Of a stretch of DNA of 64,000 nucleotides, positions 1 through 64,000 are shown piece by piece; within the stretch, counting starts at the first letter, position 1, and each line of letters begins with the position of its first letter. Origin of the DNA: Arenicola marina (lineage: Eukaryota > Annelida > Polychaeta > Arenicolidae); NCBI GenBank assembly GCA_964019135.1, contig OZ025255.1, positions 1,178,001 to 1,242,000 of the forward strand, read 5' to 3'. Made by a program: the position numbers and the translations under genes. The notes under the pieces are model-generated. The model searched no databases. It worked only from the letters and a program-made list of their open reading frames with translations, and was not told where the DNA came from.

Positions 1-3000
1 GTGTGAGTGGTACATAATGTGGTGGTGTGAGTGGCACATAATGTGATGGTGCGAGTGATACATAATGTGGTGGTGTGAGTGATACATAATGTGATGGTGT
101 GAGTGGTATATAATGTGGTGGTGTGAGTGGTACATAATGTGGTGGTGTAAGTGGTGTATAATGTGGTGGTGTGAGTGGTACATAATGTGGTGGTGTGAGT
201 GGTATATAATGTGGTGGTGTGAGTGGTGTGTAATGCGGTGGTGTAAGTGGTGTATAATGTGGTGGTGTGAGTGGTACATAATGTGGTGGTGTAAGTGGTA
301 TATAATGTGGTGGTGTGAGTGGTACATGATGTGGAGGTGTGAGTGATACATAATGTGGTGGTGTGAGTGATACATAATGTGGAGGTGTGAGTGGTACATA
401 ATGTGGTGGTGTGAGTGGTGCATAATGTGGTGGTGTGAGTGATACATAATGTGGAGGTGTGAGTGGTACATAATGTGGTGGTGTGAGTGGTATATAATGT
501 GGTGGTGTGAGTGTTGTATAATGTGGTGGTGTAAGTGGTGTATAATGTGATGGTGTGAGTGGTACATAATGCGGTGGTGTAAGTGGTATATAATGTGGTG
601 GTATGAGTGGTATATAATGTGGTGGTGTGAGTGGTGTATAATGTGGTGGTGTGAGTGGTGTATAATGTGTTGGTGTGAGTGGTATATAATGTGGTGGTGT
701 GAGTTGTATATAATGTGGTGGTGTGAGTGTTATATAATGTGGTGGTGTGAGTGATATATAATGTGGTGGTGTGAGTGGTACATAATGTGGTGGTGTGAGT
801 GGTACATAATGTGGTGGTGTGAGTGGTGTATAATAAGGTGGTGTGAGTGATACATAATGTGGTGGTGTGAGTGGTATATAATGTGGAGGTGTGAGTGGTA
901 CATAATGTGGTGGTGCGAGTGATACATAATGTGGTGGTGTGAGTGGTACATAATGTGGTGGTGTAAGAGGTGTATAATGTGGTGGTGTGAGTGGTACATA
1001 ACGTGGTGGTGTGAGTGGTGTATAATGTGGTGGTGTAAGTGGTGTATAATGTGGTGGCGTAAGTGGTGTATAATGTAGTGGTGTGAGTGGTACATAATGT
1101 GGTGGTGCAAGTGGTGTATAATGTGGTGCTGTAAGTGGTACATAATGTGGTGGTGTGAGTGGTACATAATGTGGTGGTGTAAGTGGTACATAATATGGTG
1201 CTGTAAGTGGTGTATAATATGGCGGTGTGAGTGGTACATAATGTGGTGGTGTGAGTGGTACATAATGTGGTGGTGTGAGTGGTATATATTGTGGTGGTGT
1301 GAGTGATACATAATGTGAAGGTGCGAGTGGTAAATAATGTGGTGGTGTAAGTGGTATATAATGTGGTGGTGTGAGTGTTGTATAATGTGGTGGTGTAGTG
1401 GTGTATAGTGTGGTGGTGTGAGTGGTACATAATGTGGTGGTGTAAGTGGTGTATAATGTGGTGCTGTAAGTGGTACATAATGTGGTGGTGTGAGTGGTAC
1501 ATAATGTGGTGGTGTAAGTGGTACATAATGTGGTGGTGTGAGTGGTGTATAATGTGGTGTTGTAAGTGGTGTATAATGTGGCGGTGTAAGTTGTGTATAA
1601 TGTGGTGGTGTAAGTGGTGGTGGTGTGAGTGATACATAATGTGGTGGTGTAAGTAGTGTATAATGTGGTGGCGTGAGTGATACATAATGTGGTGGTGTGA
1701 GTGGTACATAATGTGGTGGTGTAAGTGGTCTATAATGTGGCGGTGTAAGTGGTGTATAATGTGGTGGTGTGAGTGATACATAATGTGGTGGTGTAAGTTG
1801 TGTATAATGTGGTGGTGTGAGTGGTACATAATGTGGTGTTGTAAGTGGTGTATAATGTGGTGGTGTGAGTGGTATATAATGTGGTGGTGTAAGTGGTGTA
1901 TAATGTAGTGGTGTGAGTGGTGTATAATATGGTGGTGTAAGTGGTGTATAATATGGCGGTGTGAGTGGTACATAATGTGGTGGTGTAAGTGGTGTAAAAT
2001 GTGGTGGTGTAAGTGGTGTAAAATGTGGTGGTGTGAGTGGTACATAATGTGGAGGTGTGAGTGGTATATAATGTGGTGGTGTGAGTGGTACATAATGTGG
2101 TGGTGTGAGTGGTATATAATGTGGTGGTGTGAGTGGTGTGTAATGCGGTGGTGTAAGTGGTGTATAATGTGGTGGTGTGAGTGGTACATAATGTGGTGGT
2201 GTAAGTGGTGTATAATGTGGTTGTGTGAGTGGTACATAATGTGGAGGTGTGAGTGATACATAATGTGGTGGTGTGAGTGGTGTGTAATGCGGTGGTGTAA
2301 GTGGTGTATAATGTGGTGGTGTGAGTGGTACATAATGTGGTGGTGTAAGTGGTGTATAATGTGGTTGTGTGAGTGGTACATAATGTGGAGGTGTGAGTGA
2401 TACATAATGTGGTGGTGTGAGTGATACATAATGTGGAGGTGTGAGTGGTACATAATGTGGTGGTGTGAGTGGTGCATAATGTGGTGGGGCGAGTGGTACA
2501 TAATGTGGTGGTGTGAGTGATACATAATGTGGTGGTTTGAGTGATACATAATGTGGTGGTGTGAGTGGTATATAATGTGGTGGTGTGAGTGATACATAAT
2601 GTGGAGGTGTGAGTGGTACATAATGTGGTGGTGTGAGTGGTATATAATGTGGTGGTGTGAGTGTTGTATAATGTGGTGGTGTAAGTGGTGTATAATGTGG
2701 TGGTGTGAGTGGTACATAATGCGGTGGTGTAAGGGGTAAATAATGTGGTGGTGTGAGTGGTGTGTAATATGGTGGTGTGAGTGATACATAATGTGGTGGT
2801 GTGAGTGGTATATAATGTGGAGGTGTGAGTGGTACATAATGTGGTGGTGCGAGTGATACATAATGTGGTGGTGTGAGTGGTACATAATGTGGTGGTGTAA
2901 GAGGTGTGTAATGTGGTGGTGTGAGTGGTACATAATGTGGTGGTGTGAGTGGTGTATAATGTGGTGGTGTAAGTGGTGTATAATGTGGTGGCGTAAGTGG

Positions 3001-6000
3001 TGTATAATGTAGTGGTGTGAGTGGTACATAATGTGGTGGTGTAAGTGGTGTATAATGTGGTGCTGTAAGTGGTACATAATGTGGTGGTGTGAGTGGTACA
3101 TAATGTGGTGGTGTAAGTGGTACATAATATGGTGGTGTAAGTGGTGTATAATATGGCGGTGTGAGTGGTACATAATGTGGTGGTGTAAGTGGTGTAAAAT
3201 GTGGTGGTGTAACTGGTGTAAAATGTGGTGGTGTGAGTGGTAAATAATGTGGAGGTGTGAGTGGTATATAATGTGGTGGTGTGAGTGGTACATAATGTGG
3301 TGGTGTGAGTGGTACATAATGTGGTGGTGTGAGTGATACATTATGTCGTGGTGTGAGTAGTGTGTAATGTGGTGGTGTGAGTGGTACATAATGTGGTGGT
3401 GTGAGCGGTACATAATGTGGTGGTGTGAGTGGTACATAATGTGATGGTGCGAGTGACACATAATGTGGTGGTGTGAGTGATACATAATGTGATGGTGTGA
3501 GTGGTATATAATGTGGTGGTGTGAGTGGTACATAATGTGGTGGTGTAAGTGGTGTATAATGTGGTGGTGTGAGTGATACATAATGTGGTGGTGTGAGTGG
3601 TATATCATGTGGTGGTGTGTGTAATGTGGTGGTGTAAGTGGTGTATAATGTGGTGGTGTGAGTGGTACATAATGTGGTGGTGTACGTGGTATGTAATGTG
3701 GTGGTGTGAGTCGTACATAATGTGGAGGTGTGAGTGATACATAATGTGGTGGTGTGAGTGATACATAATGTGGAGGTGTGAGTGGTACATAATGTGGTGG
3801 TGTGAGTGGTGCATAATGTGGCGGTGCGAGTGGTACATAATGTGGTGGTGTGAGTGATACATAATGTAGTGGTTTGAGTGATACATAATGTGGTGGTGTG
3901 AGTGGTATATAATGTGGTGGTGTGAGTGATACATAATGTGAAGGTGTGAGTGGTAAATAATGTGGTGGTGTAAGTGGTATATAATGTGGTGGTGTGAGTG
4001 TTGTATAATGTGGTGGTGTAGTGGTGTATAATGCGGTGGTGTGAATGGTACATAATGCGGTGGTGTAAGTGGTATGTAATGTGGTGGTATGAGTGGTATA
4101 TAATGCGGTGGTGTGAGTGGTGTATAATGTGGTGGTGTGAGTGGTGTATAATGTGGTGGTGTGAGTGGTATATAATGTGGTGGTGTGAGTGGTATATAAT
4201 GTGGTGGTGTGAGTGATATATAATGTGGTGGTGTGAGTGGTACATAATGTGGTGGTGTGAGTGGTACATAATGTGGTGGTGTGAGTGGTGTATAATATGG
4301 TGGGGTGAGTGATACATAATTTGGTGGTGTGAGTGGTATATAATGTGGAGGTGTGAGTGGTACATAATGTGGTGGTGCGAGTGATACATAATGTGGTGGT
4401 GTGAGTTTTATATAATGTGGAGGTGTGAGTGGTACATAATGTGGTGGTGTGAGTGGTATACAATGTGGAGGTGTGAGTGGTACATAATGTGGTGATGTGA
4501 GTGATACATAATGTGGTGGTGTGAGTGGTATATAATGTGGAGGTGTGAGTGGTACATAATGTGGTTTTGTGAGTGGTACATAATGTGGTGGTGTGAGTGG
4601 TATATAATGTGGTGGTGTGAGTGATACATAGCGTGGTGGTGTGAGTGGTACATAATGTGGTGGTGTGAGTGGTACATGATGTGGAGGAGTGAGTGGTATA
4701 TAATGTGGTGGTGTGAGTGGTACATAATGTGGTGGTGTGAGTGGTATATAATGTGGTGGTGTGAGTGGTACATAATGTGGTGGTGTGAGTGGTACATAAT
4801 GTGGTGGTGTGAGTGATATATAATGTGGTGGTGTGAGTGGTATGTAATGTGGTGGTGTAAGAGGTGTATAATGTGGTGGTGTGAGTGGTATATAATGTGG
4901 TGGTGTGACTGGTATATAATGTGGTGGGGTGAGTGTTACATAATGTGGTGGCGTGAGTGGTACATAATGTGGTGCTGTGAGTGGTGTAAAATGTGGTGGT
5001 GTAAGTGGTGTATAATATGGCGGTGTGAGTGGTACATAATGTGGTGGTGTAAGTGGTGTAAAATGTGGTGGTGTAAGTGGTGTAAAATGTGGTGGTGTGA
5101 GTGGTACATAATGTGGAGGTGTGAGTGGTATATAATGTGGTGGTGTGAGTGGTACATAATGTGGTGGTGTGAGTGGTACATAATGTGGTGCTGTGAGTGA
5201 TACATTATGTGGTGGTGTGAGTGGTGTATAATGTGGTGGTGTGAGTGGTACATATTGTGGTGGTGTGAGCGGTACATAATGTGGTGGTGTGAGTGGTACA
5301 TAATGTGATGGTGCGAGTGATACATAATGTGGTGGTGTGAGTGATACATAATGTGATGGTGTGAGTGGTATATGATGTGGTGGTGTGAGTGGTACATAAT
5401 GTGGTGGTGTAAGTGGTGTATAATGTGGTGGTGTGAGTGGTACATAATGTGGTGGTGTGAGTGGTATATAATGTGGTGGTGTGAGAGGTGTGTAATGTGG
5501 TGGTGTAAGTGGTGTATAATGTGGTGGTGTGAGTGGTACATAATGTGGTGGTGTACGTTGTATGTAATGTGGTGGTGTGAGTGGTACATAATGTGGAGGT
5601 GTGAGTGATACATAATGTGGTGGTGTGAGTGATACATAATGTGGAGGTGTGAGTGGTACATAATGTGGTGGTGTGAGTGGTGCATAATGTGGTGGTGCGA
5701 GTGGTACATAATGTGGTGGTGTGAGTGATACATAATGTAGTGGTTTGAGTGATACATAATGTGGTGGTGTGAGTGGCATATAATGTGGTGGTGTGAGTGA
5801 TACATAATGTGAAGGTGCGAGTGGTAAATAATGTGGTGGTGTAAGTGGTATATAATGTGGTGGTGTGAGTGTTGTATAATGTGGTGGTGTAGTGGTGTAT
5901 AGTGTGGTGGTGTGAGTGGTACATAATGTGGTGGCGTGAGTGGTGTATAATGTGGTGGTGTGAGTGGTACATAATGTGGTGGTGTAAGTGGTGTATAATG

Positions 6001-6708
6001 TGGTGCTGTAAGTGGTACATAATGTGGTGGTGTGAGTGGTACATAATGTGGTGGTGTAAGTGGTAAATAATGTGGTGGTGTGAGTGGTGTATAATGTGGT
6101 GTTGTAAGTGGTGTATAATGTGGCGGTGTAAGTTGTGTATAATGTGGTGGTGTAAGTGGTGGTGGTGTGAGTGATACATAATGTGGTGGTGTAAGTAGTG
6201 TATAATGTGGTGGTGTGAGTGATACATAATGTGGTGGTGTGAGTGGTACATAATGTGGTGGTGTAAGTGGTCTATAATGTGGCGGTGTAAGTGGTGTATA
6301 ATGTGGTGGTGTGAGTGATACATAATGTGGTGGTGTAAGTTGTGTATAATGTGGTGGTGTGAGTGGTACATAATGTGGTGTTGTAAGTGGTGTATAATGT
6401 GGTGGTGTGAGTGGTATATAATGTGGTGGTGTAAGTGGTGTATAATGTAGTGGTGTGAGTGGTGTATAATATGGTGGTGTAAGTGGTGTATAATATGGCG
6501 GTGTGAGTGGTACATAATGTGGTGGTGTAAGTGGTGTAAAATGTGGTGGTGTAAGTGGTGTAAAATGTGGTGGTGTGAGTGGTACATAATGTGGAGGTGT
6601 GAGTGGTATATAATGTGGTGGTGTGAGTGATACATAATGTGAAGGTGTGAGTGGTAAATAATGTGGTGGTGTAAGTGGTATATAATGTGGTGGTGTGAGT
6701 GTTGTATA
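1..6708 (+). repeat. Long composite repeat, block A copy 1 (A1)
   Basis: This stretch recurs with the same order of variant monomers in A2 (shift 30,642, then 30,426), A3 (shift 42,381, then 42,405) and A4 (shift 51,650, then 51,674/51,681). Diagnostic landmarks include 23-bp monomers at 1,385, 4,008 and 5,879, a 17-bp monomer at 3,607, and the TACATAGCG variant near 4,625. Relative to A2, A1 has 9 extra monomers between about 1,630 and 3,030. Part of this is a visible local duplication of the stretch ending in the GTGGTTGTGTGAG variant, near 2,220 and again near 2,360. The left edge is cut by the window. Confidence 0.88.
3607..3623 (+). repeat. 17-bp monomer (7-bp loss) in A1
   Basis: Reads ATGTGGTGGTGTGTGTA and follows a TATATC monomer end. 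Compared with the intact 24-bp monomer at 55,281-55,304 in A4, the 7 bases TGGTGTG are missing between two GTGTG direct repeats, as expected for slippage or short-repeat recombination. Confidence 0.92.
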
Positions 6709-7290
6709 ATGTGGTGGTGTAGTGGTGTATAGTGTGGTGGTGTGAGTGGTACATAATGTGGTGGCGTAAGTGGTGTATAATGTGGTGGTGTGAGTGGTAC
6801 ATAATGTGGTGGTGTAAGTGGTGCATAATGTGGTGCTGTAAGTGGTACATAATGTGGTGGTGTGAGTGGTACATAATGTGGTGGTGTAAGTGGTACATAA
6901 TGTGGTGGTGTGAGTGGTGTATAATGTGGTGTTGTAAGTGGTGTATAATGTGGCGGTGTAAGTTGTGTATAATGTGGTGGTGTAAGTGGTGGTGGTGTGA
7001 GTGATACATAATGTGGTGGTGTAAGTAGTGTATAATGTGGTGGTGTGAGTGATACATAATGTGGTGGTGTGAGTGGTACATAATGTGGTGATGTAAGTGG
7101 TCTATAATGTGGCGGTGTAAGTGGTGTATAATGTGGTGGTGTGAGTGATACATAATGTGGTGGTGTAAGTTGTGTATAATGTGGTGGTGTGAGTGGTACA
7201 TAATGTGGTGTGGTAAGTGGTGTATAATGTGGTGGTGTGAGTGGTATATAATGTGGTGGTGTAAGTGGTATATAATGTGGTGGTGTAAGT
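6709..7290 (+). repeat. Start of block B, truncated (B1)
   Basis: From the 23-bp monomer at 6,709 the sequence matches the start of B4 at 49,114 with an unchanged 42,405-bp shift. It also matches the start of B2 (27,818) and B3 (39,605). It contains a fused monomer ending near 7,004. The match to B4 breaks at about 7,280, where one monomer is missing in B4 and the following variants differ, so B1 is a truncated copy that runs into the mosaic domain. Confidence 0.75.
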
Positions 7291-7682: not shown

Positions 7683-8740
7683 ATGTGATGGTGTGAGTGG
7701 TATATAATGTGGTGGTGTGAGTGGTACATAATGTGGTGGTGTAAGTGGTGTATAATGTGGTGGTGTGAGTGGTACATAATGTGGTGGTGTGAGTGGTATA
7801 TAATGTGGTGGTGTGAGTGGTGTGTAATGTGGTGGTGTAAGTGGTGTATAATGTGGTGGTGTGAGTGGTACATAATGTGGTGGTGTGAGTGGTGCATAAT
7901 GTGGTGGTGCGAGTGGTACATAATGTGCTGGTGTGAGTGGTACATAATGTGGTGGTGTGAGTGGTACATAATGTGGTGGTGTGAGCGGTACATAATGTGG
8001 TGGTGTGAGTGGTACATAATGTGATGGTGCGAGTGATACATAATGTGGTATGGGGAGTGATACATAATGTGATGGTGTGAGTGGTATATAATGTGGTGGT
8101 GTGAGTGGGACATAATGTGGTGGTGTAAGTGGTGTATAATGTGGTGGCGTGAGTGGTACATAATGTGGTGGTGTGAGTGGTATATAATGTGGTGGTGTGA
8201 GTGGTGTGTAATGTGGTGGTGTAAGTGGTGTATAATGTGGTGGTGTGAGTGGTACATAATGTGGTGGTGTGAGTGGTACATAATGTGGTGGTGTGAGTGG
8301 TGCATAATGTGGTGGTGCGAGTGGTACATAATGTGCTGGTGTGAGTGGTACATAATGTGGTGGTGTGAGTGGTACATAATGTGGTGGTGTGAGCGGTACA
8401 TAATGTGGTGGTGTGAGTGGTACATAATGTGATGGTGCGAGTGATACATAATGTGGTATGGGGAGTGATACATAATGTGATGGTGTGAGTGGTATATAAT
8501 GTGGTGGTGTGAGTGGGACATAATGTGGTGGTGTAAGTGGTGTATAATGTGGTGGTGTGAGTGGTACATAATGTGGTGGTGTGAGTGGTATATAATGTGG
8601 TGGTGTGAGTGGTGTGTAATGTGGTGGTGTAAGTGGTGTATAATGTGGTGGTGTGAGTGGTACATAATGTGGTGGTGTAAGTGGTATATAATGTGGTGGT
8701 GTGAGTGGTACATAATGTGGAGGTGTGAGTGATACATAAT
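7683..8740 (+). repeat. Tandem triplication with 384/408-bp period
   Basis: Three successive runs with the same variant order begin near 7,707, 8,091 and 8,499. The first spacing is 384 bp (16 monomers) and the second 408 bp (17 monomers, one GAG/TAC unit added). The unusual GTGGTATGGGGAG monomer occurs at 8,045 and again exactly 408 bp later at 8,453, and the GTGCTGGTG variant recurs the same way. The third copy loses the pattern after about 8,740. Confidence 0.85.
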
Positions 8741-14331: not shown

Positions 14332-16755
14332 ATGTGGTGGTGTAAGTGGTGTATAATGTGGTGGTGTGAGTGGTACATAATGTGGTGGTGTGAGTGGTAT
14401 ATAATGTGGTGGTGTGAGTGGTGTGTAATGTGGTGGTGTAAGTGGTGCATAATGTGGTGGTGTGAGTGGTACATAATGTGGTGGTGTACGTTGTATGTAA
14501 TGTGGTGGTGTGAGTGGTACATAATGTGGAGGTGTGAGTGATACATAATGTGGTGGTGTGAGTGGTATATAATGTGGTGGTGTGAGTGGTGTGTAATGTG
14601 GTGGTGTAAGTGGTGTATAATGTGGTGGTGTGAGTGGTACATAATGCGGTGGTGTAAGTGGTATATAATGTGGTGGTGTGAGTGGTACATAATGTGGAGG
14701 TGTGAGTGATACATAATGTGGTGGTGTGAGTGATACATAATGTGGAGGTGTGAGTGGTACATAATGTGGTGGTGTGAGTGGTGCATAATGTGGTGGTGCG
14801 AGTGGTACATAATGTGGTGGTGTGAGTGGTACATAATGCGGTGGTGTAAGTGGTGTATAATGTGGTGTTGTAAGTGGTGTATAATGTGGCGGTGTAAGTT
14901 GTGTATAATGTGGTGGTGTAAGTGGTGGTGGTGTGAGTGATACATAATGTGGTGGTGTAAGTAGTGTATAATGTGGTGGTGTGAGTGATACATAATGTGG
15001 TGGTGTGAGTGGTACATAATGTGGTGGTGTAAGTGGTCTATAATGTGGTGGTGTAAGTGGTGTATAATGTGGTGGTGTGAGTGATACATAATGTGGTGGT
15101 GTAAGTTGTGTATATTGTGGTGGTGTGAGTGGTACATAATGTGGTGGTGCAAGTGGTGTATAATGTGGTGGTGTGAGTGGTATATAATGTGGTGGTGTAA
15201 GTGGTATATAATGTGGTGGTGTAAGTGGTGTATAATGTGGTGGTGTGAGTGGTGTATAATATGGTGGTGTAAGTGGTGTATAATATGGCGGTGTGAGTGG
15301 TACATAATGTGGTGGTGTAAGTGGTGTAAAATGTGGTGGTGTAAGTGGTGTAAAATGTGGTGGTGTGAGTGGTACATAATGTGGTGGTGTGAGTGGTACA
15401 TAATGTGGTGGTGTGAGCGGTACATAATGTGGTGGTGTGAGTGGTACATAATGTGATGGTGCGAGTGATACATAATGTGATGGTGTGAGTGGTATATAAT
15501 GTGGTGGTGTGAGTGGTACATAATGTGGTGGTGTAAGTGGTGTATAATGTGGTGGTGTGAGTGGTACATAATGTGGTGGTGTGAGTGGTATATAATGTGG
15601 TGGTGTGAGTGGTGTGTAATGTGGTGGTGTAAGTGGTGTATAATGTGGTGGTGTGAGTGGTACATAATGTGGTGGTGTAAGTGATATATAATGTGGTGCT
15701 GTGAGTGGTACATAATGTGGAGGTGTGAGTGATACGTAATGTGGTGGTGTGAGTGATACATAATGTGGAGGTGTGAGTGGTACATAATGTGGTGGTGTGA
15801 GTGGTGCATAATGTGGTGGTGCGAGTGGTACATAATGTGGTGGTGTGAGTGATACATAATGTGGTGGTTTGAGTGATACATAATGTGGTGGTGTGAGTGG
15901 TATATAATGTGGTGGTGTGAGTGATACATAATGTGGAGGTGTGAGTGGGACATAATGTGGTGGTGTGAGTGGTATATAATGTGGTGGTGTGAGTGTTGTA
16001 TAATGTGGTGGTGTAAGTGGTGTATAATGTGGTGGTGTGAGTGGTACATAATGCGGTGGTGTAAGTGGTATATAATGTGGTGGTATGAGTGGTATATAAT
16101 GTGGTGGTGTGAGTGGTGTATAATGTGGTGGTGTGAGTGGTGTATAATGTGTTGGTGTGAGTGGTATATAATGTGGTGGTGTGAGTTGTATATAATGTAG
16201 TGGTGTGAGTGGTATATAATGTGGTGGTGTGAGTGATATATAATGTGGAGGTGTGAGTGGTACATAATGTGGTGGTGTGAGTGGTACATAATGTGGTGGT
16301 GTGAGTGGTGTATAATATGGTGGTGTGAGTGATACATAATGTGGTGGTGTGTGTGGTATATAATGTGGAGGTGTGAGTGGTACATAATGTGGTGGTGCGA
16401 GTGATACATAATGTGGTGGTGTGAGTGGTGTATAATGTGGTGGAGTAAGTGGTGTATAATGTGGTTGCGTAAGTGGTGTATAATGTGGTGGTGTAAGTGG
16501 TGTATAATGTGGTGGCGTAAGTGGTGTATAATGTGGTAGTGTGAGTGGTACATAATGTGGTGGTGTAAGTGGTGTATAATGTGGTGCTGTAAGTGGCACA
16601 TAATGTGGTGATGTGAGTGGTACATAATGGGGTGGTGTAAGTGGTACATAATGTGGTGGTGTGAGTGGTGTATAATGTGGTGTTGTAAGTGGTGTATAAT
16701 GTGGCGGTGTAAGTTGTTTATAATGTGGTGGTGTAAGTGGTGGTGGTGTGAGTGA
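14332..16755 (+). repeat. C-type segment, copy 2
   Basis: From 14,740 on it matches copy 3 at a constant shift of 4,508 bp (189 monomers after counting one 1-bp and three 9-bp losses in between). The upstream part, 14,332-14,541, matches 18,672 at a shift of 4,340 bp; the 168-bp difference is an extra 7 monomers in copy 3. It shares private variants with copies 3 and 4, such as GTATATTGTGG near 15,111, GTGTGTGGTAT near 16,347 and GTGGTTGCGTAAG near 16,463. Confidence 0.83.
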
Positions 16756-18345
16756 TACATAGTGTGGTGGTGTAAGTAGTGTATAATGTGGTGGTGTGAG
16801 TGATACATAATGTGGTGGTGTGAGTGGTACATAATGTGGTGGTGTAAGTGGTCTATAATGTGGCGGTGTAAGTGGTGTATAATGTGGTGGTGTGAGTGAT
16901 ACATAATGTGGTGGTGTAAGTTGTGTATAATGTGGTGGTGTGAGTGGTACATAATGTGGTGGTGTAAGTGGTATATAATGTGGTGGTGTAAGTGGTGTAT
17001 AATGTAGTGGTGTGAGTGGCGTATAATATGGTGGTGTAAGTGGTGTATAATATGGCGGTGTGAGTGGTACATAATGTGGTGGTGTAAGTGGTGTAAAATG
17101 TGGTGGTGTAAGTGGTGTAAAATGTGGTGGTGTGAGTGGTACATAATGTGGAGGTGTGAGTGGTATATAATGTGGTGGTGTGAGAGGTACATAATGTGGT
17201 TGTGTGAGTGGTACATAATGTGGTGGTGTGAGTGATACATTATGTGGTGGTGTGAGTGGTGTATAATGTGGTGGTGTGAGTGGTACATAATGTGGTGGTG
17301 TGAGCGGTACATAATGTGGTGGTGTGAGTGGTACATAATGTGATGGTGCGAGTGATACATAATGTGGTGGTGTGAGTGATACATAATGTGATGGTGTGAG
17401 TGGTATATAATATGGTGGTGTGAGTGGTACATAATGTGGTGGTGTAAGTGGTGTATAATGTGGTGGTGTGAGTGGTGCATAATGTGGTGGTGTGAGTGGT
17501 ATATAATGTGGTGGTGTGAGTGGTGTGTAATGTGGTGGTGTAAGTGGTGTATAATGTGGTGGTGTGAGTGGTACATAATGTGGTGGTGTACGTTGTATGT
17601 AATGTGGTGGTGTGAGTGGTACATAATGTGGAGGTGTGAGTGATACATAATGTGGTGGTGTGAGTGGTACATAATGTGGTGGTGTGAGCGGTACATAATG
17701 TGGTGGTGTGAGTGGTACATAATGTGATGGTGCGAGTGATACATAATGTGGTGGTGTGAGTGATACATAATGTGATGGTGTGAGTGGTATATAATGTGGT
17801 GGTGTGAGTGGTACATAATGTGGTGGTGTAAGTGGTGTATAATGTGGTGGTGCGAGTGGTACATAATGTGGTGGTGTGAGTGGTATATAATGTGGTGGTG
17901 TGAGTGGTGTGTAATGTGGTGGTGTAAGTGGTGTATAATGTGGTGGTGTGAGTGGTACATAATGTGGTGGTGTAAGTGGTATATAATGTGGTGGTGTGAG
18001 TGGTACATAATGTGGAGGTGTGAGTGATACATAATGTGGTGGTGTGAGTGATACATAATGTGGAGGTGTGAGTGGTACATAATGTGGTGGTGTGAGTGGT
18101 GCATAATGTGGTGGTGCGAGTGGTACATAATGTGGTGGTGTGAGTGGTGCATAATGTGATGGTGCGAGTGATACATAATGTGGTGGTGTGAGTGATACAT
18201 AATGTGATGGTGTGAGCGGTATATGATGTGGTGGTGTGAGTGATACATAATGTAGTGGTTTGAGTGATACATAATGTGAAGGTGCGAGTGGTAAATAATG
18301 TGGTGGTGTAAGTGGTATATAATGTGGTGGTGTGAGTGTTGTATA
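16756..18345 (+). repeat. D-type segment, copy 2
   Basis: Matches 23,982 onward with a shift of 7,226 bp (landmarks 17,434/24,660). The shift rises to 7,346 bp by 17,794/25,140, so copy 3 has five extra monomers in between. Shared private variants include GTGGCGTATAATATGG near 17,018/24,244 and a GTGGTTGTGTGAG monomer near 17,199/24,425. The end near 18,220 carries GAGCGGTATATGATG, also found in B blocks near 30,033, 41,820 and 51,306. Confidence 0.78.
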
Positions 18346-33600: not shown

Positions 33601-34032
33601 ATGTGGTGGTGTAAGTGGTGTAAAATGTGGTGGTGTAACTGGTGTAAAATGTGGTGGTGTGAGTGGTAAATAATGTGGAGGTGTGAGTGGTATATAATGT
33701 GGTGGTGTGAGTGGTACATAATGTGGTGGTGTGAGTGGTACATAATGTGGTGGTGTGAGTGATACATTATGTCGTGGTGTGAGTAGTGTGTAATGTGGTG
33801 GTGTGAGTGGTCCATAATGTGGTGGTGTGAGCGGTACATAATGTGGTGGTGTGAGTGGTACATAATGTGATGGTGCGAGTGACACATAATGTGGTGGTGT
33901 GAGTGATACATAATGTGATGGTGTGAGTGGTATATAATGTGGTGGTGTGAGTGGTACATAATGTGGTGGTGTAAGTGGTGTATAATGTGGTGGTGTGAGT
34001 GATACATAATGTGGTGGTGTGAGTGGTATATC

Positions 34033-34049
34033 ATGTGGTGGTGTGTGTA
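34033..34049 (+). repeat. 17-bp monomer (7-bp loss) in A2
   Basis: Same 17-bp monomer in the same variant context as at 3,607 (shift 30,426), so it was inherited through block duplication or conversion and is not an independent event. Confidence 0.92.
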
Positions 34050-45300: not shown

Positions 45301-48300
45301 TGTAAGAGGTGTGTAATGTGGTGGTGTGAGTGGTACATAATGTGGTGGTGTGAGTGGTGTATAATGTGGTGGTGTAAGTGGTGTATAATGTGGTGGCGTA
45401 AGTGGTGTATAATGTAGTGGTGTGAGTGGTACATAATGTGGTGGTGTAAGTGGTGTATAATGTGGTGCTGTAAGTGGTACATAATGTGGTGGTGTGAGTG
45501 GTACATAATGTGGTGGTGTAAGTGGTACATAATATGGTGGTGTAAGTGGTGTATAATATGGCGGTGTGAGTGGTACATAATGTGGTGGTGTAAGTGGTGT
45601 AAAATGTGGTGGTGTAACTGGTGTAAAATGTGGTGGTGTGAGTGGTAAATAATGTGGAGGTGTGAGTGGTATATAATGTGGTGGTGTGAGTGGTACATAA
45701 TGTGGTGGTGTGAGTGGTACATAATGTGGTGGTGTGAGTGATACATTATGTCGTGGTGTGAGTAGTGTGTAATGTGGTGGTGTGAGTGGTACATAATGTG
45801 GTGGTGTGAGCGGTACATAATGTGGTGGTGTGAGTGGTACATAATGTGATGGTGCGAGTGACACATAATGTGGTGGTGTGAGTGATACATAATGTGATGG
45901 TGTGAGTGGTATATAATGTGGTGGTGTGAGTGGTACATAATGTGGTGGTGTAAGTGGTGTATAATGTGGTGGTGTGAGTGATACATAATGTGGTGGTGTG
46001 AGTGGTATATCATGTGGTGGTGTGTGTAATGTGGTGGTGTAAGTGGTGTATAATGTGGTGGTGTGAGTGGTACATAATGTGGTGGTGTACGTGGTATGTA
46101 ATGTGGTGGTGTGAGTCGTACATAATGTGGAGGTGTGAGTGATACATAATGTGGTGGTGTGAGTGATACATAATGTGGAGGTGTGAGTGGTACATAATGT
46201 GGTGGTGTGAGTGGTGCATAATGTGGCGGTGCGAGTGGTACATAATGTGGTGGTGTGAGTGATACATAATGTAGTGGTTTGAGTGATACATAATGTGGTG
46301 GTGTGAGTGGTATATAATGTGGTGGTGTGAGTGATACATAATGTGAAGGTGTGAGTGGTAAATAATGTGGTGGTGTAAGTGGTATATAATGTGGTGGTGT
46401 GAGTGTTGTATAATGTGGTGGTGTAGTGGTGTATAATGCGGTGGTGTGAATGGTACATAATGCGGTGGTGTAAGTGGTATGTAATGTGGTGGTATGAGTG
46501 GTATATAATGCGGTGGTGTGAGTGGTGTATAATGTGGTGGTGTGAGTGGTGTATAATGTGGTGGTGTGAGTGGTATATAATGTGGTGGTGTGAGTGGTAT
46601 ATAATGTGGTGGTGTGAGTGATATATAATGTGGTGGTGTGAGTGGTACATAATGTGGTGGTGTGAGTGGTACATAATGTGGTGGTGTGAGTGGTGTATAA
46701 TATGGTGGGGTGAGTGATACATAATTTGGTGGTGTGAGTGGTATATAATGTGGAGGTGTGAGTGGTACATAATGTGGTGGTGCGAGTGATACATAATGTG
46801 GTGGTGTGAGTTTTATATAATGTGGAGGTGTGAGTGGTACATAATGTGGTGGTGTGAGTGGTATACAATGTGGAGGTGTGAGTGGTACATAATGTGGTGA
46901 TGTGAGTGATACATAATGTGGTGGTGTGAGTGGTATATAATGTGGAGGTGTGAGTGGTACATAATGTGGTTTTGTGAGTGGTACATAATGTGGTGGTGTG
47001 AGTGGTATATAATGTGGTGGTGTGAGTGATACATAGCGTGGTGGTGTGAGTGGTACATAATGTGGTGGTGTGAGTGGTACATGATGTGGAGGAGTGAGTG
47101 GTATATAATGTGGTGGTGTGAGTGGTACATAATGTGGTGGTGTGAGTGGTATATAATGTGGTGGTGTGAGTGGTACATAATGTGGTGGTGTGAGTGGTAC
47201 ATAATGTGGTGGTGTGAGTGATATATAATGTGGTGGTGTGAGTGGTATGTAATGTGGTGGTGTAAGAGGTGTATAATGTGGTGGTGTGAGTGGTATATAA
47301 TGTGGTGGTGTGACTGGTATATAATGTGGTGGGGTGAGTGTTACATAATGTGGTGGCGTGAGTGGTACATAATGTGGTGCTGTGAGTGGTGTAAAATGTG
47401 GTGGTGTAAGTGGTGTATAATATGGCGGTGTGAGTGGTACATAATGTGGTGGTGTAAGTGGTGTAAAATGTGGTGGTGTAAGTGGTGTAAAATGTGGTGG
47501 TGTGAGTGGTACATAATGTGGAGGTGTGAGTGGTATATAATGTGGTGGTGTGAGTGGTACATAATGTGGTGGTGTGAGTGGTACATAATGTGGTGCTGTG
47601 AGTGATACATTATGTGGTGGTGTGAGTGGTGTATAATGTGGTGGTGTGAGTGGTACATATTGTGGTGGTGTGAGCGGTACATAATGTGGTGGTGTGAGTG
47701 GTACATAATGTGATGGTGCGAGTGATACATAATGTGGTGGTGTGAGTGATACATAATGTGATGGTGTGAGTGGTATATGATGTGGTGGTGTGAGTGGTAC
47801 ATAATGTGGTGGTGTAAGTGGTGTATAATGTGGTGGTGTGAGTGGTACATAATGTGGTGGTGTGAGTGGTATATAATGTGGTGGTGTGAGAGGTGTGTAA
47901 TGTGGTGGTGTAAGTGGTGTATAATGTGGTGGTGTGAGTGGTACATAATGTGGTGGTGTACGTTGTATGTAATGTGGTGGTGTGAGTGGTACATAATGTG
48001 GAGGTGTGAGTGATACATAATGTGGTGGTGTGAGTGATACATAATGTGGAGGTGTGAGTGGTACATAATGTGGTGGTGTGAGTGGTGCATAATGTGGTGG
48101 TGCGAGTGGTACATAATGTGGTGGTGTGAGTGATACATAATGTAGTGGTTTGAGTGATACATAATGTGGTGGTGTGAGTGGCATATAATGTGGTGGTGTG
48201 AGTGATACATAATGTGAAGGTGCGAGTGGTAAATAATGTGGTGGTGTAAGTGGTATATAATGTGGTGGTGTGAGTGTTGTATAATGTGGTGGTGTAGTGG

Positions 48301-54900: not shown

Positions 54901-56655
54901 GGTGGTGTGAGTGGTAAATAATGTGGAGGTGTGAGTGGTATATAATGTGGTGGTGTGAGTGGTACATAATGTGGTGGTGTGAGTGGTACATAATGTGGTG
55001 GTGTGAGTGATACATTATGTCGTGGTGTGAGTAGTGTGTAATGTGGTGGTGTGAGTGGTACATAATGTGGTGGTGTGAGCGGTACATAATGTGGTGGTGT
55101 GAGTGGTACATAATGTGATGGTGCGAGTGACACATAATGTGGTGGTGTGAGTGATACATAATGTGATGGTGTGAGTGGTATATAATGTGGTGGTGTGAGT
55201 GGTACATAATGTGGTGGTGTAAGTGGTGTATAATGTGGTGGTGTGAGTGATACATAATGTGGTGGTGTGAGTGGTATATCATGTGGTGGTGTGTGTGGTG
55301 TGTAATGTGGTGGTGTAAGTGGTGTATAATGTGGTGGTGTGAGTGGTACATAATGTGGTGGTGTACGTGGTATGTAATGTGGTGGTGTGAGTCGTACATA
55401 ATGTGGAGGTGTGAGTGATACATAATGTGGTGGTGTGAGTGATACATAATGTGGAGGTGTGAGTGGTACATAATGTGGTGGTGTGAGTGGTGCATAATGT
55501 GGCGGTGCGAGTGGTACATAATGTGGTGGTGTGAGTGATACATAATGTAGTGGTTTGAGTGATACATAATGTGGTGGTGTGAGTGGTATATAATGTGGTG
55601 GTGTGAGTGATACATAATGTGAAGGTGTGAGTGGTAAATAATGTGGTGGTGTAAGTGGTATATAATGTGGTGGTGTGAGTGTTGTATAATGTGGTGGTGT
55701 AGTGGTGTATAATGCGGTGGTGTGAATGGTACATAATGCGGTGGTGTAAGTGGTATGTAATGTGGTGGTATGAGTGGTATATAATGCGGTGGTGTGAGTG
55801 GTGTATAATGTGGTGGTGTGAGTGGTGTATAATGTGGTGGTGTGAGTGGTATATAATGTGGTGGTGTGAGTGGTATATAATGTGGTGGTGTGAGTGATAT
55901 ATAATGTGGTGGTGTGAGTGGTACATAATGTGGTGGTGTGAGTGGTACATAATGTGGTGGTGTGAGTGGTGTATAATATGGTGGGGTGAGTGATACATAA
56001 TTTGGTGGTGTGAGTGGTATATAATGTGGAGGTGTGAGTGGTACATAATGTGGTGGTGCGAGTGATACATAATGTGGTGGTGTGAGTTTTATATAATGTG
56101 GAGGTGTGAGTGGTACATAATGTGGTGGTGTGAGTGGTATACAATGTGGAGGTGTGAGTGGTACATAATGTGGTGATGTGAGTGATACATAATGTGGTGG
56201 TGTGAGTGGTATATAATGTGGAGGTGTGAGTGGTACATAATGTGGTTTTGTGAGTGGTACATAATGTGGTGGTGTGAGTGGTATATAATGTGGTGGTGTG
56301 AGTGATACATAGCGTGGTGGTGTGAGTGGTACATAATGTGGTGGTGTGAGTGGTACATGATGTGGAGGAGTGAGTGGTATATAATGTGGTGGTGTGAGTG
56401 GTACATAATGTGGTGGTGTGAGTGGTATATAATGTGGTGGTGTGAGTGGTACATAATGTGGTGGTGTGAGTGGTACATAATGTGGTGGTGTGAGTGATAT
56501 ATAATGTGGTGGTGTGAGTGGTATGTAATGTGGTGGTGTAAGAGGTGTATAATGTGGTGGTGTGAGTGGTATATAATGTGGTGGTGTGACTGGTATATAA
56601 TGTGGTGGGGTGAGTGTTACATAATGTGGTGGCGTGAGTGGTACATAATGTGGTG
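51946..56655 (+). repeat. Block A copy 4 (A4), missing both ends
   Basis: Matches A1 at 51,650 bp, then 51,674 and 51,681. At its left end 11 monomers (264 bp) are missing at about 52,030, between GATGGTGTGAGTGGTATATAATG and the next GTGGAGGTG unit. This is the only A copy with a full 24-bp monomer at 55,281-55,304, where A1, A2 and A3 have 17 bp. The match stops at about 56,655, where other copies have GTGCTGTGAGTGGTGTAAAATG and A4 passes into the distal domain. Confidence 0.87.
55281..55304 (+). repeat. Intact 24-bp counterpart of the 17-bp monomer, in A4
   Basis: Reads GTGGTGTGTGTGGTGTGTAATG around the site where A1, A2 and A3 have lost 7 bases. The flanks (TATATCATG on the left, GTAAGTGGTGTATAATG on the right) are the same. 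A4 therefore keeps the presumably ancestral length. Confidence 0.92.
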
Positions 56656-57749: not shown

Positions 57750-58380
57750 TAATGTGGTGGTGTGAGTGGTATATAATGTGGAGGTGTGAGTGGTACATAA
57801 TGTGGTGGTGCGAGTGATACATAATGTGGTGGTGTGAGTGGTATATAATGTGGAGGTGTGAGTGGTACATAATGTGGTGGTGTGAGTGGTATACAATGTG
57901 GAGGTGTGAGTGGTACATAATGTGGTGATGTGAGTGATACATAATGTGGTGGTGTGAGTGGTATATAATGTGGAGGTGTGAGTGGTACATAATGTGGTTT
58001 TGTGAGTGGTACATCATGTGGTGGTGTGAGTGGTATATAATGTGTTGGTGTGAGCGATACATAGCGTGGTGGTGTGAGTGGTACATAATGTGGTGGTGTG
58101 AGTGGTACATGATGTGGAGGAGTGAGTGGTATATAATGTGGTGGTGTGAGTGGTACATAATGTGGTGGTGTGAGTGGTATATAATGTGGCGGTGTGAGTG
58201 GTACATAATGTGGTGGTGTGAGTGGTACATAATGTGGTGGTGTGAGTGATATATAATGTGGTGGTGTGAGTGGTATATAATGTGGTGGTGTAAGAGGTGT
58301 ATAATGTGGTGGTGTGAGTGGTATATAATGTGGTGGTGTGAGTGGTATATAATGTGGTGGGGTGAGTGTTACATAATGTG
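57750..58380 (+). repeat. Fragment of block A inside the distal domain
   Basis: The order of variants from about 57,760 follows A1 from about 4,340: GTATACAATG, GTGGTGATGTGAG, GTGGTTTTGTGAG, TACATAGCG (near 58,062), GTACATGATGTGGAGGAG and GTGGGGTGAGTGTTAC. Private changes include GTACATCATG near 58,011, GTGTTGGTGTGAGCG near 58,043 and GGCGGTGTGAG near 58,188. This is a diverged copy of the last part of A4, placed about 1.7 kb beyond it and flanked by distal-domain monomers. Confidence 0.78.
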
Positions 58381-60430
58381 GTGGCGTGAGTGGTACATAA
58401 TGTGGTGGTGTGAGTGGTACATAATGTGGTGGTGTGAGTGATACATAATGTGGTGGTGTGAGTGGTACATAATGTGGTGGTGTGAGTGATACATAATGTG
58501 GTGGTGTGAGTCGTACATAATGTGGTGGTGTAAGTGGTGTATAATGGGGTGGTGTGAGTGGTACATAATGTGGTGGTGTAAGTGGTATATAATGTGGTGG
58601 TGTAAGAGGTGTATAATGTGGTGGTGTGAGTGGTACATAATGTGGTGGTGTGAGTGATACATAATGTGATGGTGTGAGTGGCATATAATGTGGAGGTGTG
58701 AGTGGTACATAATGTGGAGGTGTGAGTGGTATATAATGTGGTGGTGTGAGTGGTACATAATGTGGTGGTGTGAGTGGTATATAATGTGGCGGTGTGAGTG
58801 GTACATAATGTGGTGGTGTGAGTGGTACATAATGTGGTGGTGTGAGTGATATATTATGTGGTGGTGTGAGTGGTATATAATGTGGAGGTGTAAGAGGTGT
58901 ATAATGTGGTGGTGTGAGTGGTATATAATGTGGTGGTGTGAGTGGTATATAATGTGGTGGGGTGAGTGGTATATAATGTGGTGGTGTGAGTGGTATATAA
59001 TGTGGTGGGGTGAGTGTTACATAATGTGGTGGCGTGAGTGGTACATAATGTGGTGGTGTGAGTGGTACATAATGTGGTGGTGTGAGTGCTACATAATGTG
59101 GTGGTGTGAGTGGTACATAATGTGGTGGTGTGAGTGATACATAATGTGGTGGTGTGAGTCGTACATAATGTGGTGGTGTAAGTGGTGTATAATGGGGTGG
59201 TGTGAGTGGTACATAATGTGGTGGTGTAAGTGGTATATAATGTGGTGGTGTAAGAGGTGTATAATGTGGTGGTGTGAGTGGTACATAATGTGGTGGTGTG
59301 AGTGATACATAATGTGATGGTGTGAGTGGCATATAATGTGGAGGTGTGAGTGGTACATAATGTGGAGGTGTGAGTGGTATATAATGTGGTGGTGTAAGTG
59401 GTATATAACGTGGTGGTGTGAGTGGTACATAATGTGGTGGTGTGAGTGGTATATAATGTGTTGGTGTAAGAGGTGTATAATGTGGTTGTGTAAGTGGTAC
59501 ATAATGTGGGGGTGTGAGTGGTACATAATGTGGTGCTGTGAGTGGCATATAATGTGGTGGTGTGAGTGGTACATAATGTGGTGGTGTGAGTGGTGTATAA
59601 TGTGGTGGTGTGAGTGGTACATAATGTGGTGGTGTGAGTGGTACATAATGTGGTGGTGTGAGTGGTACATAATGTGGAGGTGTGAGTGGTACATAATGTG
59701 GTGGCGTGAGTGGTATATAATGTGGTGGTGTAGGTGGTATATAATATGGTGGTGTGAGTGGTACATAATGTGGTGGTGTGAGTGGTACATAATGTGGTGG
59801 TGTGAGTGGTGTATAATGTGGTGGTGTGAGTGGTATATAATGTGGTGGTGTAAGAGGTGTATAATGTGGTGGTGTGAGTGGTACATAATGTGGTGGTGTG
59901 AGTGGTACATAATGTGGTGGTGTGAGTGGTACATAATGTGGAGGTGTGAGTGGTACATAATGTGGTGGTGCGAGTGATACATAATGTGGTGGTGTGAGTG
60001 GTATATAATGTGGTGGAGTGAGTGGCACATAACTTGGTGGTGTGAGTGGTGTATAATGTGGTGGTGTGTATGGTATATAATGTGGTGGGGTGAGTGGTAC
60101 ATAATGTGGTGGTGTGAGTGGTACATAATGTGGTGGTGTGAGTGGTATATAATGTGGTGGTGTGAGTGATACATAATGTGGTGGTGTGAGTATTACATAA
60201 TGTGGTGGTGTGAGTGGTACATAATGTGGTGGTGTGAGTGATGTATAATGTGGTGGTGTAAGTGGTGTATAATGTGGTGGCGTAAGTGGTGTATAATGTG
60301 GTGGTGTAAGTGGTGTATAATGTGGTGGCGTAAGTGGTGTATAATGTGGTGGTGTGAGTGGTACATAATGTGTTGGTGTAAGTGGTGTATAATGTGGTGC
60401 TGTAAGTGGTACATAATGTGGTGGTGTGAG

Positions 60431-61438
60431 TCGTACATAATGTGGTGGTGTAAGTGGTGTATAATGGGGTGGTGTGAGTGGTACATAATGTGGTGGTGTA
60501 AGTGGTATATAATGTGGTGGTGTAAGAGGTGTATAATGTGGTGGTGTGAGTGGTACATAATGTGGTGGTGTGAGTGATACATAATGTGATGGTGTGAGTG
60601 GCATATAATGTGGAGGTGTGAGTGGTACATAATGTGGAGGTGTGAGTGGTATATAATGTGGTGGTGTAAGTGGTATATAACGTGGTGGTGTGAGTGGTAC
60701 ATAATGTGGTGGTGTGAGTGGTATATAATGTGGTGGTGTAAGAGGTGTATAATGTGGTTGTGTAAGTGGTACATAATGTGGGGGTGTGAGTGGTACATAA
60801 TGTGGTGGTGTGAGTGGTATATAATGTGGTTTTGTGAGTGGTACATAATGTGGTGGTGTGAGTGGCACATAACGTAGAGGTGTGAGTGGTACATAATGTG
60901 GTGGTGTGAGTGATACAAAATGTGGTAGTGTGAATGGTATATAATGTGGTGGGGTGAGTGGTACATAATGTGGTGGTGTGAGTGGTACATAATGTGGTGG
61001 TGTGAGTGGCATATAATGTGGTGGTGTGAGTGGTACATAATGTGGTGGTGTGAGTGGTGTATAATGTGGTGGTGTGAGTGGTACATAATGTGGTGGTGTG
61101 AGTGGTACATAATGTGGTGGTGTGAGTGGTACATAATGTGGAGGTGTGAGTGGTACATAATGTGGTGGCGTGAGTGGTATATAATGTGGTGGTGTAGGTG
61201 GTATATAATGTGGTGGTGTGAGTGGTACATAATGTGGTGGTGTGAGTGGTACATAATGTGGTGGTGTGAGTGGTGTATAATGTGGTGGTGTGAGTGGTAT
61301 ATAATGTGGTGGTGTAAGAGTTGTATAATGTGGTGGTGTGAGTGGTACATAATGTGGTGTTGTGAGTGGTACATAATGTGGTGGTGTGAGTGGTACATAA
61401 TGTGGTGGTGTGAGTGATACATAATGTGGTGGTGTGAG
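60431..61438 (+). repeat. 1,008-bp (42-monomer) higher-order repeat, copy 1
   Basis: Measured from GAGTCGTACATAATG to the next occurrence. Within it the landmarks GGCATATAATGTGGAGG (60,599), TAACGTAGAGG (near 60,869), GATACAAAATGTGGTAG (60,912) and GTAGGTGGTAT recur exactly 1,008 bp later. It has no length-variant monomer. It ends with a private GTAAGAGTTGTATAATG near 61,315 where copy 2 has GTAAGAGGTGT. Confidence 0.92.
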
Positions 61439-62446
61439 TCGTACATAAGGTGGTGGTGTAAGTGGTGTATAATGGGGTGGTGTGAGTGGTACATAATGTG
61501 GTGGTGTAAGTGGTATATAATGTGGTGGTGTAAGAGGTGTATAATGTGGTGGTGTGAGTGGTACATAATGTGGTGGTGTGAGTGATACATAATGTGATGG
61601 TGTGAGTGGCATATAATGTGGAGGTGTGAGTGGTACATAATGTGGAGGTGTGAGTGGTATATAATGTGGTGGTGTAAGTGGTATATAACGTGGTGGTGTG
61701 AGTGGTACATAATGTGGTGGTGTGAGTGGTATATAATGTGGTGGTGTAAGAGGTGTATAATGTGGTTGTGTAAGTGGTACATAATGTGGGGGTGTGAGTG
61801 GTACATAATGTGGTGGTGTGAGTGGTCTATAATGTGGTTTTGTGAGTGGGACATAATGTGGTGGTGTGAGTGGCACATAACGTAGAGGTGTGAGTGGTAC
61901 ATAATGTGGTGGTGTGAGTGATACAAAATGTGGTAGTGTGAATGGTATATAATGTGGTGGGGTGAGTGGTACATAATGTGGTGGTGTGAGTGGTACATAA
62001 TGTGGTGGTGTGAGTGGCATATAATGTGGTGGTGTGAGTGGTACATAATGTGGTGGTGTGAGTGGTGTATAATGTGGTGGTGTGAGTGGTACATAATGTG
62101 GTGGTGTGAGTGGTACATAATGTGGTGGTGTGAGTGGTACATAATGTGGAGGTGTGAGTGGTAGATAATGTGGTGGCGTGAGTGGTATATAATGTGGTGG
62201 TGTAGGTGGTATATAATGTGGTGGTGTGAGTGGTACATAATGTGGTGGTGTGAGTGGTACATAATGTGGTGGTGTGAGTGGTGTATAATGTGGTGGTGTG
62301 AGTGGTATATAATGTGGTGGTGTAAGAGGTGTATAATGTGGTGGTGTGAGTGGTACATAATGTGGTGTTGTGAGTGGTACATAATGTGGTGGTGTGAGTG
62401 GTACATAATGTGGTGGTGTGAGTGATACATAATGTGGTGGTGTGAG
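61439..62446 (+). repeat. 1,008-bp (42-monomer) higher-order repeat, copy 2
   Basis: Nearly identical to copy 1 by eye. Private changes are GTACATAAGGTGG near 61,441, GTCTATAATGTGGTTTTG near 61,827, GTGGGACATAATG near 61,847 and GTAGATAATG near 62,161. It shares GTGTTGTGAGTGG with copy 1 (61,358/62,366). Confidence 0.92.
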
Positions 62447-63400
62447 TCGTACATCATGTGGTGGTGTAAGTGGTGTATAATGGGGTGGTGTGAGTGGTAC
62501 ATAATGTGGTGGTGTAAGTGGTATATAATGTGGTGGTGTAAGAGGTGTATAATGTGGTGGTGTGAGTGGTACATAATGTGGTGGTGTGAGTGATACATAA
62601 TGTGATGGTGTGAGTGGCATATAATGTGGAGCTGTGAGTGGTACATAATGTGGAGGTGTGAGTGGTATATAATGTGGTGGTGTAAGTGGTATATAACGTG
62701 GTGGTGTGAGTGGTACATAATGTGGTGGTGTGAGTGGTATATAATGTGGTGGTGTAAGAGGTGTATAATGTGGTTGTGTAAGTGGTACATAATGTGGGGG
62801 TGTGAGTGGTACATAATGTGGTGGTGTGAGTGGTATATAATGTGGTTTTGTGAGTGGTACATAATGTGGTGGGGTGAGTGGCACATAACGTAGAGGTGTG
62901 AGTGGTACATAATGTGGTGGTGTGAGTGATACAAAATGTGGTAGTGTGAATGGTATATAATGTGGTGGGGTGAGTGGTACATAATGTGGTGGTGTGAGTG
63001 GTACATAATGTGGTGGTGTGAGTGGCATATAATGTGGTGGTGTGAGTGGTACATAATGTGGTGGTGTGAGTGTGTATAATGTGGTGGTGTGAGTGGTACA
63101 TAATGTGGTGGTGTGAGTGGTACATAATGTGGTGGTGTGAGTGGTACATAATGTGGAGGTGTGAGTGGTACATAATGTGGTGGCGTGAGTGGTATATAAT
63201 GTGGTGGTGTAGGTGGTATATAATGTGGTGGTGTGAGTGGTACATAATGTGGTGGTGTGAGTGGTACATAATGTGGTGGTGTGAGTGGTGTATAATGTGG
63301 TGGTGTGAGTGGTATATAATGTGGTGGTGTAAGAGGTGTATAATGTGGTGGTGTGAGTGGTACATAATGTGGTGGTGTGAGTGGTACATAATGTGGTGGT
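62447..63400 (+). repeat. 1,008-bp higher-order repeat, copy 3 (right end diverges)
   Basis: Follows copies 1 and 2 until about 63,380, then continues differently, with extra GAG/TAC monomers, a GTGGAGGTG unit and a GTAAGAGGTGT unit, instead of returning to GAGTCGTAC after 1,008 bp. Private changes are GTACATCATG near 62,449, GGAGCTGTGAG near 62,629, GGGGTGAGTGGCAC near 62,872, and a one-base loss that makes the monomer 63,056-63,078 only 23 bp. Confidence 0.87.
63056..63078 (+). repeat. Private 23-bp monomer in the distal domain
   Basis: Reads GAGTGTGTATAATG where the two preceding 1,008-bp copies have GAGTGGTGTATAATG, so one G is missing. The base differs from that lost in the 27-member family, and the change is found once, so it is an independent and probably recent event or a sequencing error. 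Confidence 0.9.
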
Positions 63401-63478
63401 GTGAGTGGTACATAATGTGGAGGTGTGAGTGGTACATAATGTGGTGGTGTAAGAGGTGTATAATGTGGTGGTGTGAGT

Positions 63479-64000
63479 GGTACATAATGTGGTGGTGTGA
63501 GTGATGTATAATGTGGTGGTGTAAGTGGTGTATAATGTGGTGGCGTAAGTGGTGTATAATGTGGTGGTGTAAGTGGTGTATAATGTGGTGGCGTAAGTGG
63601 TGTATAATGTGGTGGTGTGAGTGGTACATAATGTGTTGGTGTAAGTGGTGTATAATGTGGTGCTGTAAGTGGTACATAATGTGGTGGTGTGAGTCGTACA
63701 TAATGTGGTGGTGTAAGTGGTGTATAATGGGGTGGTGTGAGTGGTACATAATCTGGTGGTGTAAGTGGTATATAATGTGGTGGTGTAAGAGGTGTATAAT
63801 GTGGTGGTGTGAGTGGTACATAATGTGGTGGTGTGAGTGATACATAATGTGATGGTGTGAGTGGCATATAATGTGGAGGTGTGAGTGGTACATAATGTGG
63901 AGATGTGAGTGGTATATAATGTGGTGGTGTAAGTGGTATATAACGTGGTGGTGTGAGTGGTACATAATGTGGTGGTGTGAGTGGTATATAATGTGGTGGT
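63479..64000 (+). repeat. Second copy of the 60.2-kb lead-in, cut by window end
   Basis: From about 63,490 the sequence repeats 60,227 onward at a shift of 3,263 bp (136 monomers minus the one-base loss at 63,056). It includes the GAGTGATGTATAATG start, paired GGCGTAAG monomers, GTGTTGGTGTAAG and GAGTCGTACATAATG (60,431/63,694). This implies a larger unit containing three 1,008-bp repeats. Private changes are TAATCTGG near 63,750 and GGAGATGTGAG near 63,899. Confidence 0.87.

Follow-up and report, generated by a model that had tools for sequence, protein, structure and literature searches.

Monomer variants in higher-order repeats of the alpha satellite type spread by the duplication of multi-monomer blocks. 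The terminal short tandem repeats of the dipteran Rhynchosciara are built from units of 14-22 bp (PMC12051294). The 24-bp array of the polychaete Arenicola marina described here belongs with short-unit satellite and minisatellite arrays by its tandem head-to-tail arrangement, its strand asymmetry, the lack of a protein-coding signature in six frames, its recent duplication blocks and a copy pattern that suggests whole-unit exchange and local homogenisation, but it is in our judgement very long for a 24-bp unit. As in the alpha type, its monomer variants were spread by the duplication of multi-monomer blocks; unlike those repeats, it has no constant multimer period and the shifts between duplicated blocks are irregular. 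Its self-similarity is 0.868 at 24 bp and declines steadily to 0.686 at 360 bp. In approximate unit size it is similar to the Rhynchosciara repeats (PMC12051294), but unlike dipteran terminal repeats, or telomeric repeats at a chromosome end, it begins 1.15 Mb away from the end of the contig, whose first 10 kb (C8:1-10000) contained no matching 12-mers.

The analysed stretch of 64,000 bp, here called the window (C8:1178001-1242000), lies on the 44.4-Mb contig C8 of an 867-Mb assembly with 762 contigs. It is a head-to-tail 24-bp array from end to end (positions 1..64000) with both ends open, and 2,678 copies at period 24 cover 64,000 of its 64,000 bases. The consensus unit is ATGTGGTGGTGTGAGTGGTACATA. 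The G/T-rich strand is the plus strand, with 40% G, 35% T, 22% A and 3% C. The left edge of the array was located at about C8:1,148.6 kb, next to other repeats and unique-looking DNA. From there it was sampled as array up to 1,502 kb; it persists at C8:1,492,001-1,502,000 and is absent from C8:1,642,001-1,652,000. A pattern query found the consensus word 4,079 times in the genome, always on one strand and, among the matches listed, always on C8. If all 4,079 matches belong to one array, it would span about 470 kb at the sampled density, a figure that presupposes and does not prove a single locus.

The array is an ordinary sequence of a known kind, and the array itself is new. No description of it was found in the accessible portions of the literature on 24-bp satellites, strand asymmetry and chromosome ends, monomer length with indels, and higher-order repeats, and the sole match to 14-base monomer words in searchable text was a paper on Daphnia nitric oxide synthase. 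A blastn search of window positions 113-4112 against plasmids and phages gave no match, although its low-complexity filter may hide such DNA. The exact monomer had 0 matches in viral and genome contig collections. A DNA query against the worm's own genome likewise returned 0 despite the presence of the array, so this query mode is blind to it.

Unit lengths were determined by two segmentations. A cyclic profile alignment over all 64,000 bases yielded 2,682 monomer slots, two of them clipped by the window ends. Plain 24-bp units occupied 2,583 of the 2,682 slots; the remainder included 33 fused 39-bp units (seen as 17+22 pairs, 9 bp short), three true 17-bp units, each 7 bp short, and 28 units of 23 bp, of which 27 were of one kind and 1 of another. 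The second, alignment-free segmentation cut wherever the sequence matched TATAATGTGGTGGTG with 4 mismatches or fewer. Its sole spacings were 24 (2,615), 15 (33), 23 (28) and 17 (3), the fused unit appearing as 15+24. Two shorter anchors again gave 39 (33), 23 (28) and 17 (3), along with 52 or 48 pairs of 3+21 that are split 24s. The length variants of the window are the following:

1600..1638, plus strand: first F39, a fused 39-bp unit with a 9-bp deletion spanning the monomer joint; 33 starts at 1600, 6142, 6972, 8931, 10746, 13375, 13654, 14269, 14908, 16723, 18609, 19416, 21327, 22134, 23949, 26771, 28081, 28576, 29310, 30428, 32242, 37744, 39868, 40363, 41097, 42167, 43981, 48547, 49377, 49848, 50582, 51700 and 53250
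1385..1407, plus strand: first M23a, a 23-bp unit with one A lost from AA; 27 starts at 1385, 4008, 5879, 6709, 13041, 13184, 18346, 26508, 27818, 29047, 30165, 32027, 34434, 37481, 38311, 39030, 39605, 40834, 41952, 43766, 46413, 48284, 49114, 50319, 51437, 53035 and 55689
3607..3623, plus strand: S17, a 17-bp unit with a 7-bp deletion
34033..34049, plus strand: S17 copy
46012..46028, plus strand: S17 copy
63056..63078, plus strand: M23b, a private 23-bp unit with one G lost from GG

The first-pass annotation had listed 24, 23, 17 and 15 bp as the only unit lengths, and for the window both segmentations agree with this list. Its landmark spacings also came out as whole numbers of units once the missing bases were added back (113-30,755, 1285.0; 30,755-42,494, 492.0; 42,950-52,219, 389.0; 52,219-63,511, 471.0), and other lengths that might cancel in these spacings were looked for in the window and are absent. 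The net number of missing bases is 346, with no offsetting insertion. Plain 24-bp monomers differ from the consensus by at most 6 mismatches, a value reached by 2 of 2,581. The longest stretch free of length variants runs from 55689 to 63056; positions 56656-64000 lie largely outside long exact copies and hold neither F39 nor M23a. One length-neutral monomer stands apart by 4 changes within 5 bp at a length of 24 and occurs twice in the window:

8043..8066, plus strand: complex monomer with a clustered change; its ordinary counterpart stands in the monomer-type context '27 1 21'
8451..8474, plus strand: the complex monomer again, 17 units further along

It was also found at C8:1151650 and 1152058, giving 4 copies in the larger sample, and is either a clustered substitution or mutation event or a balanced indel.

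The length variants recur in shared surroundings. F39 follows monomer type 22 in 29 cases, type 113 in 3 and type 156 in 1, the variants being one to two changes away; M23a follows type 11 in 26 cases and type 166, one change away, in 1. At least two identical neighbours on at least one side were found in 81% of 528 pairs of F39 sites and 83% of 351 pairs of M23a sites, against 8.7% for pairs of plain parental monomers by the same measure. S17 is present in three copies of one block, of which a fourth copy carries the uncut unit:

55281..55304, plus strand: 24-bp unit without the deletion, standing in the place of S17 in the block's fourth copy (start calculated from the 9,269-bp shift)

All three pairs of S17 and this counterpart differ cleanly by 7 bp, with 192-bp flanks that match exactly. 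Uncut counterparts of M23b lie at about 61040 and 62048 (derived starts), about 1 and 2 kb upstream, and an uncut parental monomer follows the left neighbour of M23a at 12 places with differing outer flanks. For F39, no uncut counterpart within the same flanks was found in the window. Given the shared flanks and neighbours together with these uncut counterparts, one origin for each length type is the simplest reading of the sequence. The contrast between 81% or 83% and 8.7% bears out the earlier claim of about four independent length changes in the window, the rest being copies. Such indels are rare, seemingly single-origin markers with which the duplications of a satellite array can be ordered.

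Copying is evident well beyond the length variants: exact 200-mers present at least twice cover 88.9% of the window, again in keeping with the view that the rest are copies. Block pairs of at least 900 bp were 99.4-100% identical in 35 of 36 cases and 97.7% identical in one. Two blocks serve as examples:

2260..7211, plus strand: duplicated block that differs from 44665-49616 by 1 mismatch in 4,952 (99.98% identity)
14363..17666, plus strand: duplicated block, 99.97% identical to 21589-24892

Differences between copies were counted at clean junctions with exact 192-bp flanks, as distinct signatures that are not proven independent events. The count comprised 19 SNP and 2 multi-base signatures, 24 whole-unit signatures (8 direct and 16 after adding back known indels contained in them), 2 sub-unit signatures and 1 unclassified length difference. 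With 144-bp flanks there were 25 SNP, 4 multi-base, 23+28 whole-unit and 2 small sub-unit signatures; with 96-bp flanks, 51 SNP, 20 multi-base, 50+44 whole-unit and 3 sub-unit signatures, two of the 3 at the M23b site. In this young layer, then, 2 sub-unit signatures face 21 substitution signatures at 192 bp, and 2 sites face 71 at 96 bp. The 24 whole-unit against 2 sub-unit signatures indicate that the array changes length often, but in whole units; several of the sub-unit changes follow the internal repeats of the unit. A count by resynchronisation was dropped, as it merged large skips containing known indels with real sub-unit changes and left 188 of 509 pairs without resolution at 192-bp flanks.

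Indels were fairly rare and point variants far more diverse, as the first-pass annotation had stated. A minimum spanning tree joining the window's 198 types of plain monomer contains 208 substitution steps, compared with 4 length changes; the step count is rough, since recombination between monomers would inflate it, and its floor is the 63 non-consensus column states. The larger sample gave about 10 length changes for 325 substitution steps, a ratio of roughly 1:32. Human DNA outside indel hotspots is even poorer in indels than the genome at large, at about 1:16. PMC6543879 gives 1 short indel per 8 SNPs for humans, a bias of indel mutation towards deletions, and a share of slippage of about 75% of indel events in hotspots and about 50% elsewhere. 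By Poisson expectation, 10 length types are too few for a ratio of 1:8 (P = 1e-8) or 1:16 (P = 0.009), and are the expected number at 1:32 (P = 0.56). A neutral simulation with segment duplication and deletion (400 runs per ratio, kept only with 160-240 monomer types) produced at most 4 length types in 0 of 23 runs at 1:8, 0 of 139 at 1:16, 7 of 224 at 1:32 and 34 of 248 at 1:50. Since 1:32 so rarely gives four or fewer, indels are scarcer in the window than in the array on average. The rarity of indels is partly what a homopolymer-poor unit should show; the window contains 137 homopolymer runs of at least 4, compared with a mean of 1,730 in 20 shuffles.

The low ratios in the window and the larger sample, both under the human 1:8 of PMC6543879, are also what would be seen if a length-sensitive process such as a protein lattice or nucleosome phasing removed or forbade units other than 24 bp. 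The first-pass annotation had suggested such a process, or a purging of indels. The copy numbers lend support to neither. The length types of the window occur in 33, 27, 3 and 1 copies, while the median for the 198 substitution types is 4, and only 7.6% and 11.1% of the latter reach the copy numbers of the two most abundant deletions. Tests for a lower copy number of indels gave P = 0.74 in the window (P = 0.64 for types with at most 4 copies versus more) and P = 0.40 in the larger sample with 10 length and 315 substitution types, although with 4 and 10 length types all of them have little power. Within that power, register-breaking variants were not kept rarer than substitutions, as they would be in a phased or length-constrained array. 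Purging thus finds no support, as indel types and substitution types have similar copy numbers. The same holds for the length-sensitive process, which we regard as very unlikely: the 1-, 7- and 9-bp deletions are not compensated by insertions and leave the 346 bp missing, two of them rank with the more highly amplified variants, and elsewhere the same array contains six additional length types, including one insertion.

A different loss of indels might act earlier, if gene conversion against unpaired loops restored the 24-bp majority before a variant spreads. Such a loss would cut the number of distinct indels and not the copy number of those that escape, and the window does hold fewer length types than expected at 1:32. 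No direct trace of it was seen; the uncut counterpart of S17 at 55281 could be a restoration, but the plain order of duplications also explains it. We consider this loss unlikely. Equally doubtful is the broader proposition that repair or homogenisation within the array acts against register-breaking alleles, making sub-unit indels several times less frequent than in compositionally equal unique DNA, with a strictness differing by sub-region (1158-1282 versus 1322-1352 and 1492-1502 kb). If an active bias of this kind were proved, it would bear on the constancy of satellite unit lengths.

As 24 bp equal 8 codons, indels could also be limited by the reading frame of a protein with an 8-residue repeat on the minus strand. 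Stops are scarce in the minus frames (22, 44 and 15 over the 64 kb), and the longest open stretch extends over 7,312 codons (window 5208-27143, minus strand). However, all three minus frames are open from base composition, because the plus strand has so little C and the consensus lacks TTA, CTA and TCA. Among 186 one-base substitution steps (11 two-base edges excluded), neither a synonymous excess nor a significant stop deficit was found in 6 frames (all P > 0.14), and the length variants include 28 losses of 1 bp and 3 of 7 bp. A coding function is hardly credible. We further regard it as highly improbable that copies or 1-bp variants are errors of assembly or consensus. M23b, a single 1-bp loss in GG in the assembled sequence, would fit such an error, but the recurrent types reappear with partly diverged flanks over about 350 kb, and consensus errors should add indels rather than take them away.

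Beyond the window, the six sampled pieces comprised 7,894 slots (end slots of each piece dropped), 2,681 of them in the window and 5,213 outside. F39 followed the same monomer as in the window in 39 of 42 outside copies, a one-step variant in 1 and another F39 in 2; M23a followed the same monomer in 37 of 42 and a one-step variant in 5. These counts exclude one F39 and one M23a with an extra substitution; the copies of F39 were taken to include a fused unit at 1493079 in which one base is changed. An 8-bp spacing in one outside piece presumably belongs to the 23-bp unit that carries an additional substitution at 1248668. S17 recurred once.

Six further length types were detected outside the window: +2 (4 copies), -2 (4), -3 (4), -12 (2), -15 (2) and a separate -15 (1). 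The annotated list of lengths thus holds for the window and fails for the same array outside it, where units of 26, 22, 21 and 12 bp and 33-bp fusions occur. All six sit in the pieces at 1322-1352 kb and 1492-1502 kb; those at 1148-1153, 1382-1392 and 1442-1452 kb had no new length types. The distribution is uneven: the core piece has 4 types among 5,192 slots, two other pieces have 6 among 1,670, and the remaining 1,032 slots add none. A supposed compensated +1/-1 pair (C8:1340496 and two more places) proved on reading the letters to be two substitutions in ATAATG and was dropped from the length count. The single -15 has the left neighbour that S17 has in the window. The -7 (window 3607, 34033 and 46012) and -15 (C8:1336218) deletions share this rare preceding monomer, which ends in TATATC and is possibly a local deletion hot spot. 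An in-array duplication in C8:1332001-1342000, at a distance of 4,182 bp, holds the +2 and -2 units together.

The unit is internally repetitive, with its longest direct repeats at shifts of 3, 9, 12, 15 and 21 bp. Five of nine deletion sizes match these spacings (3, 9, 12, 15 and 15 bp) and four do not (1, 1, 2 and 7). The breakpoint ambiguities of the nine deletions were 1, 1, 6, 3, 0, 6, 8, 8 and 5 bp, thus at least 5 bp in 5 of 9 (P 0.0004-0.0006). Their total of 38 compares with 12.5 and 11.7 for random deletions of 1-15 and 1-23 bp (P 0.00035 and 0.0002), under a crude null of uniform deletion length and with deletion parents that are assumed except for S17 and M23b. With the deletion length held fixed the effect was gone, breakpoint homology being unremarkable (per-event values combine to about P 0.4 in a hand calculation), so the homology signal lies mostly in the deletion sizes. 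The -2 deletion had zero breakpoint homology; the +2 insertion lengthens a GT run.

Sub-unit length changes would arise by rare strand slippage or by short-homology deletion between repeats inside the unit, in homopolymer-poor DNA. The resulting length variants would then behave as any other variant, and unequal exchange together with kilobase duplication could copy some of them dozens of times, in whole units because homology is in register. The window would seem to hold only four length changes because it consists mostly of recent copies of a few haplotypes. Ordinary satellite evolution of this kind, with slippage and unequal exchange as processes read from their products, is in our view the probable explanation, and an outside ruler or a length-measuring process is not needed to explain the length table.

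Other tandem repeats crowd the surrounding region of the contig. In sampled 10-kb stretches of C8:0.78-2.01 Mb, periods of 50, 51 and 51 bp were found with a self-match of 0.78-0.93, and weaker repeats with periods of 27, 46 and 72 bp had a self-match of 0.48-0.50.
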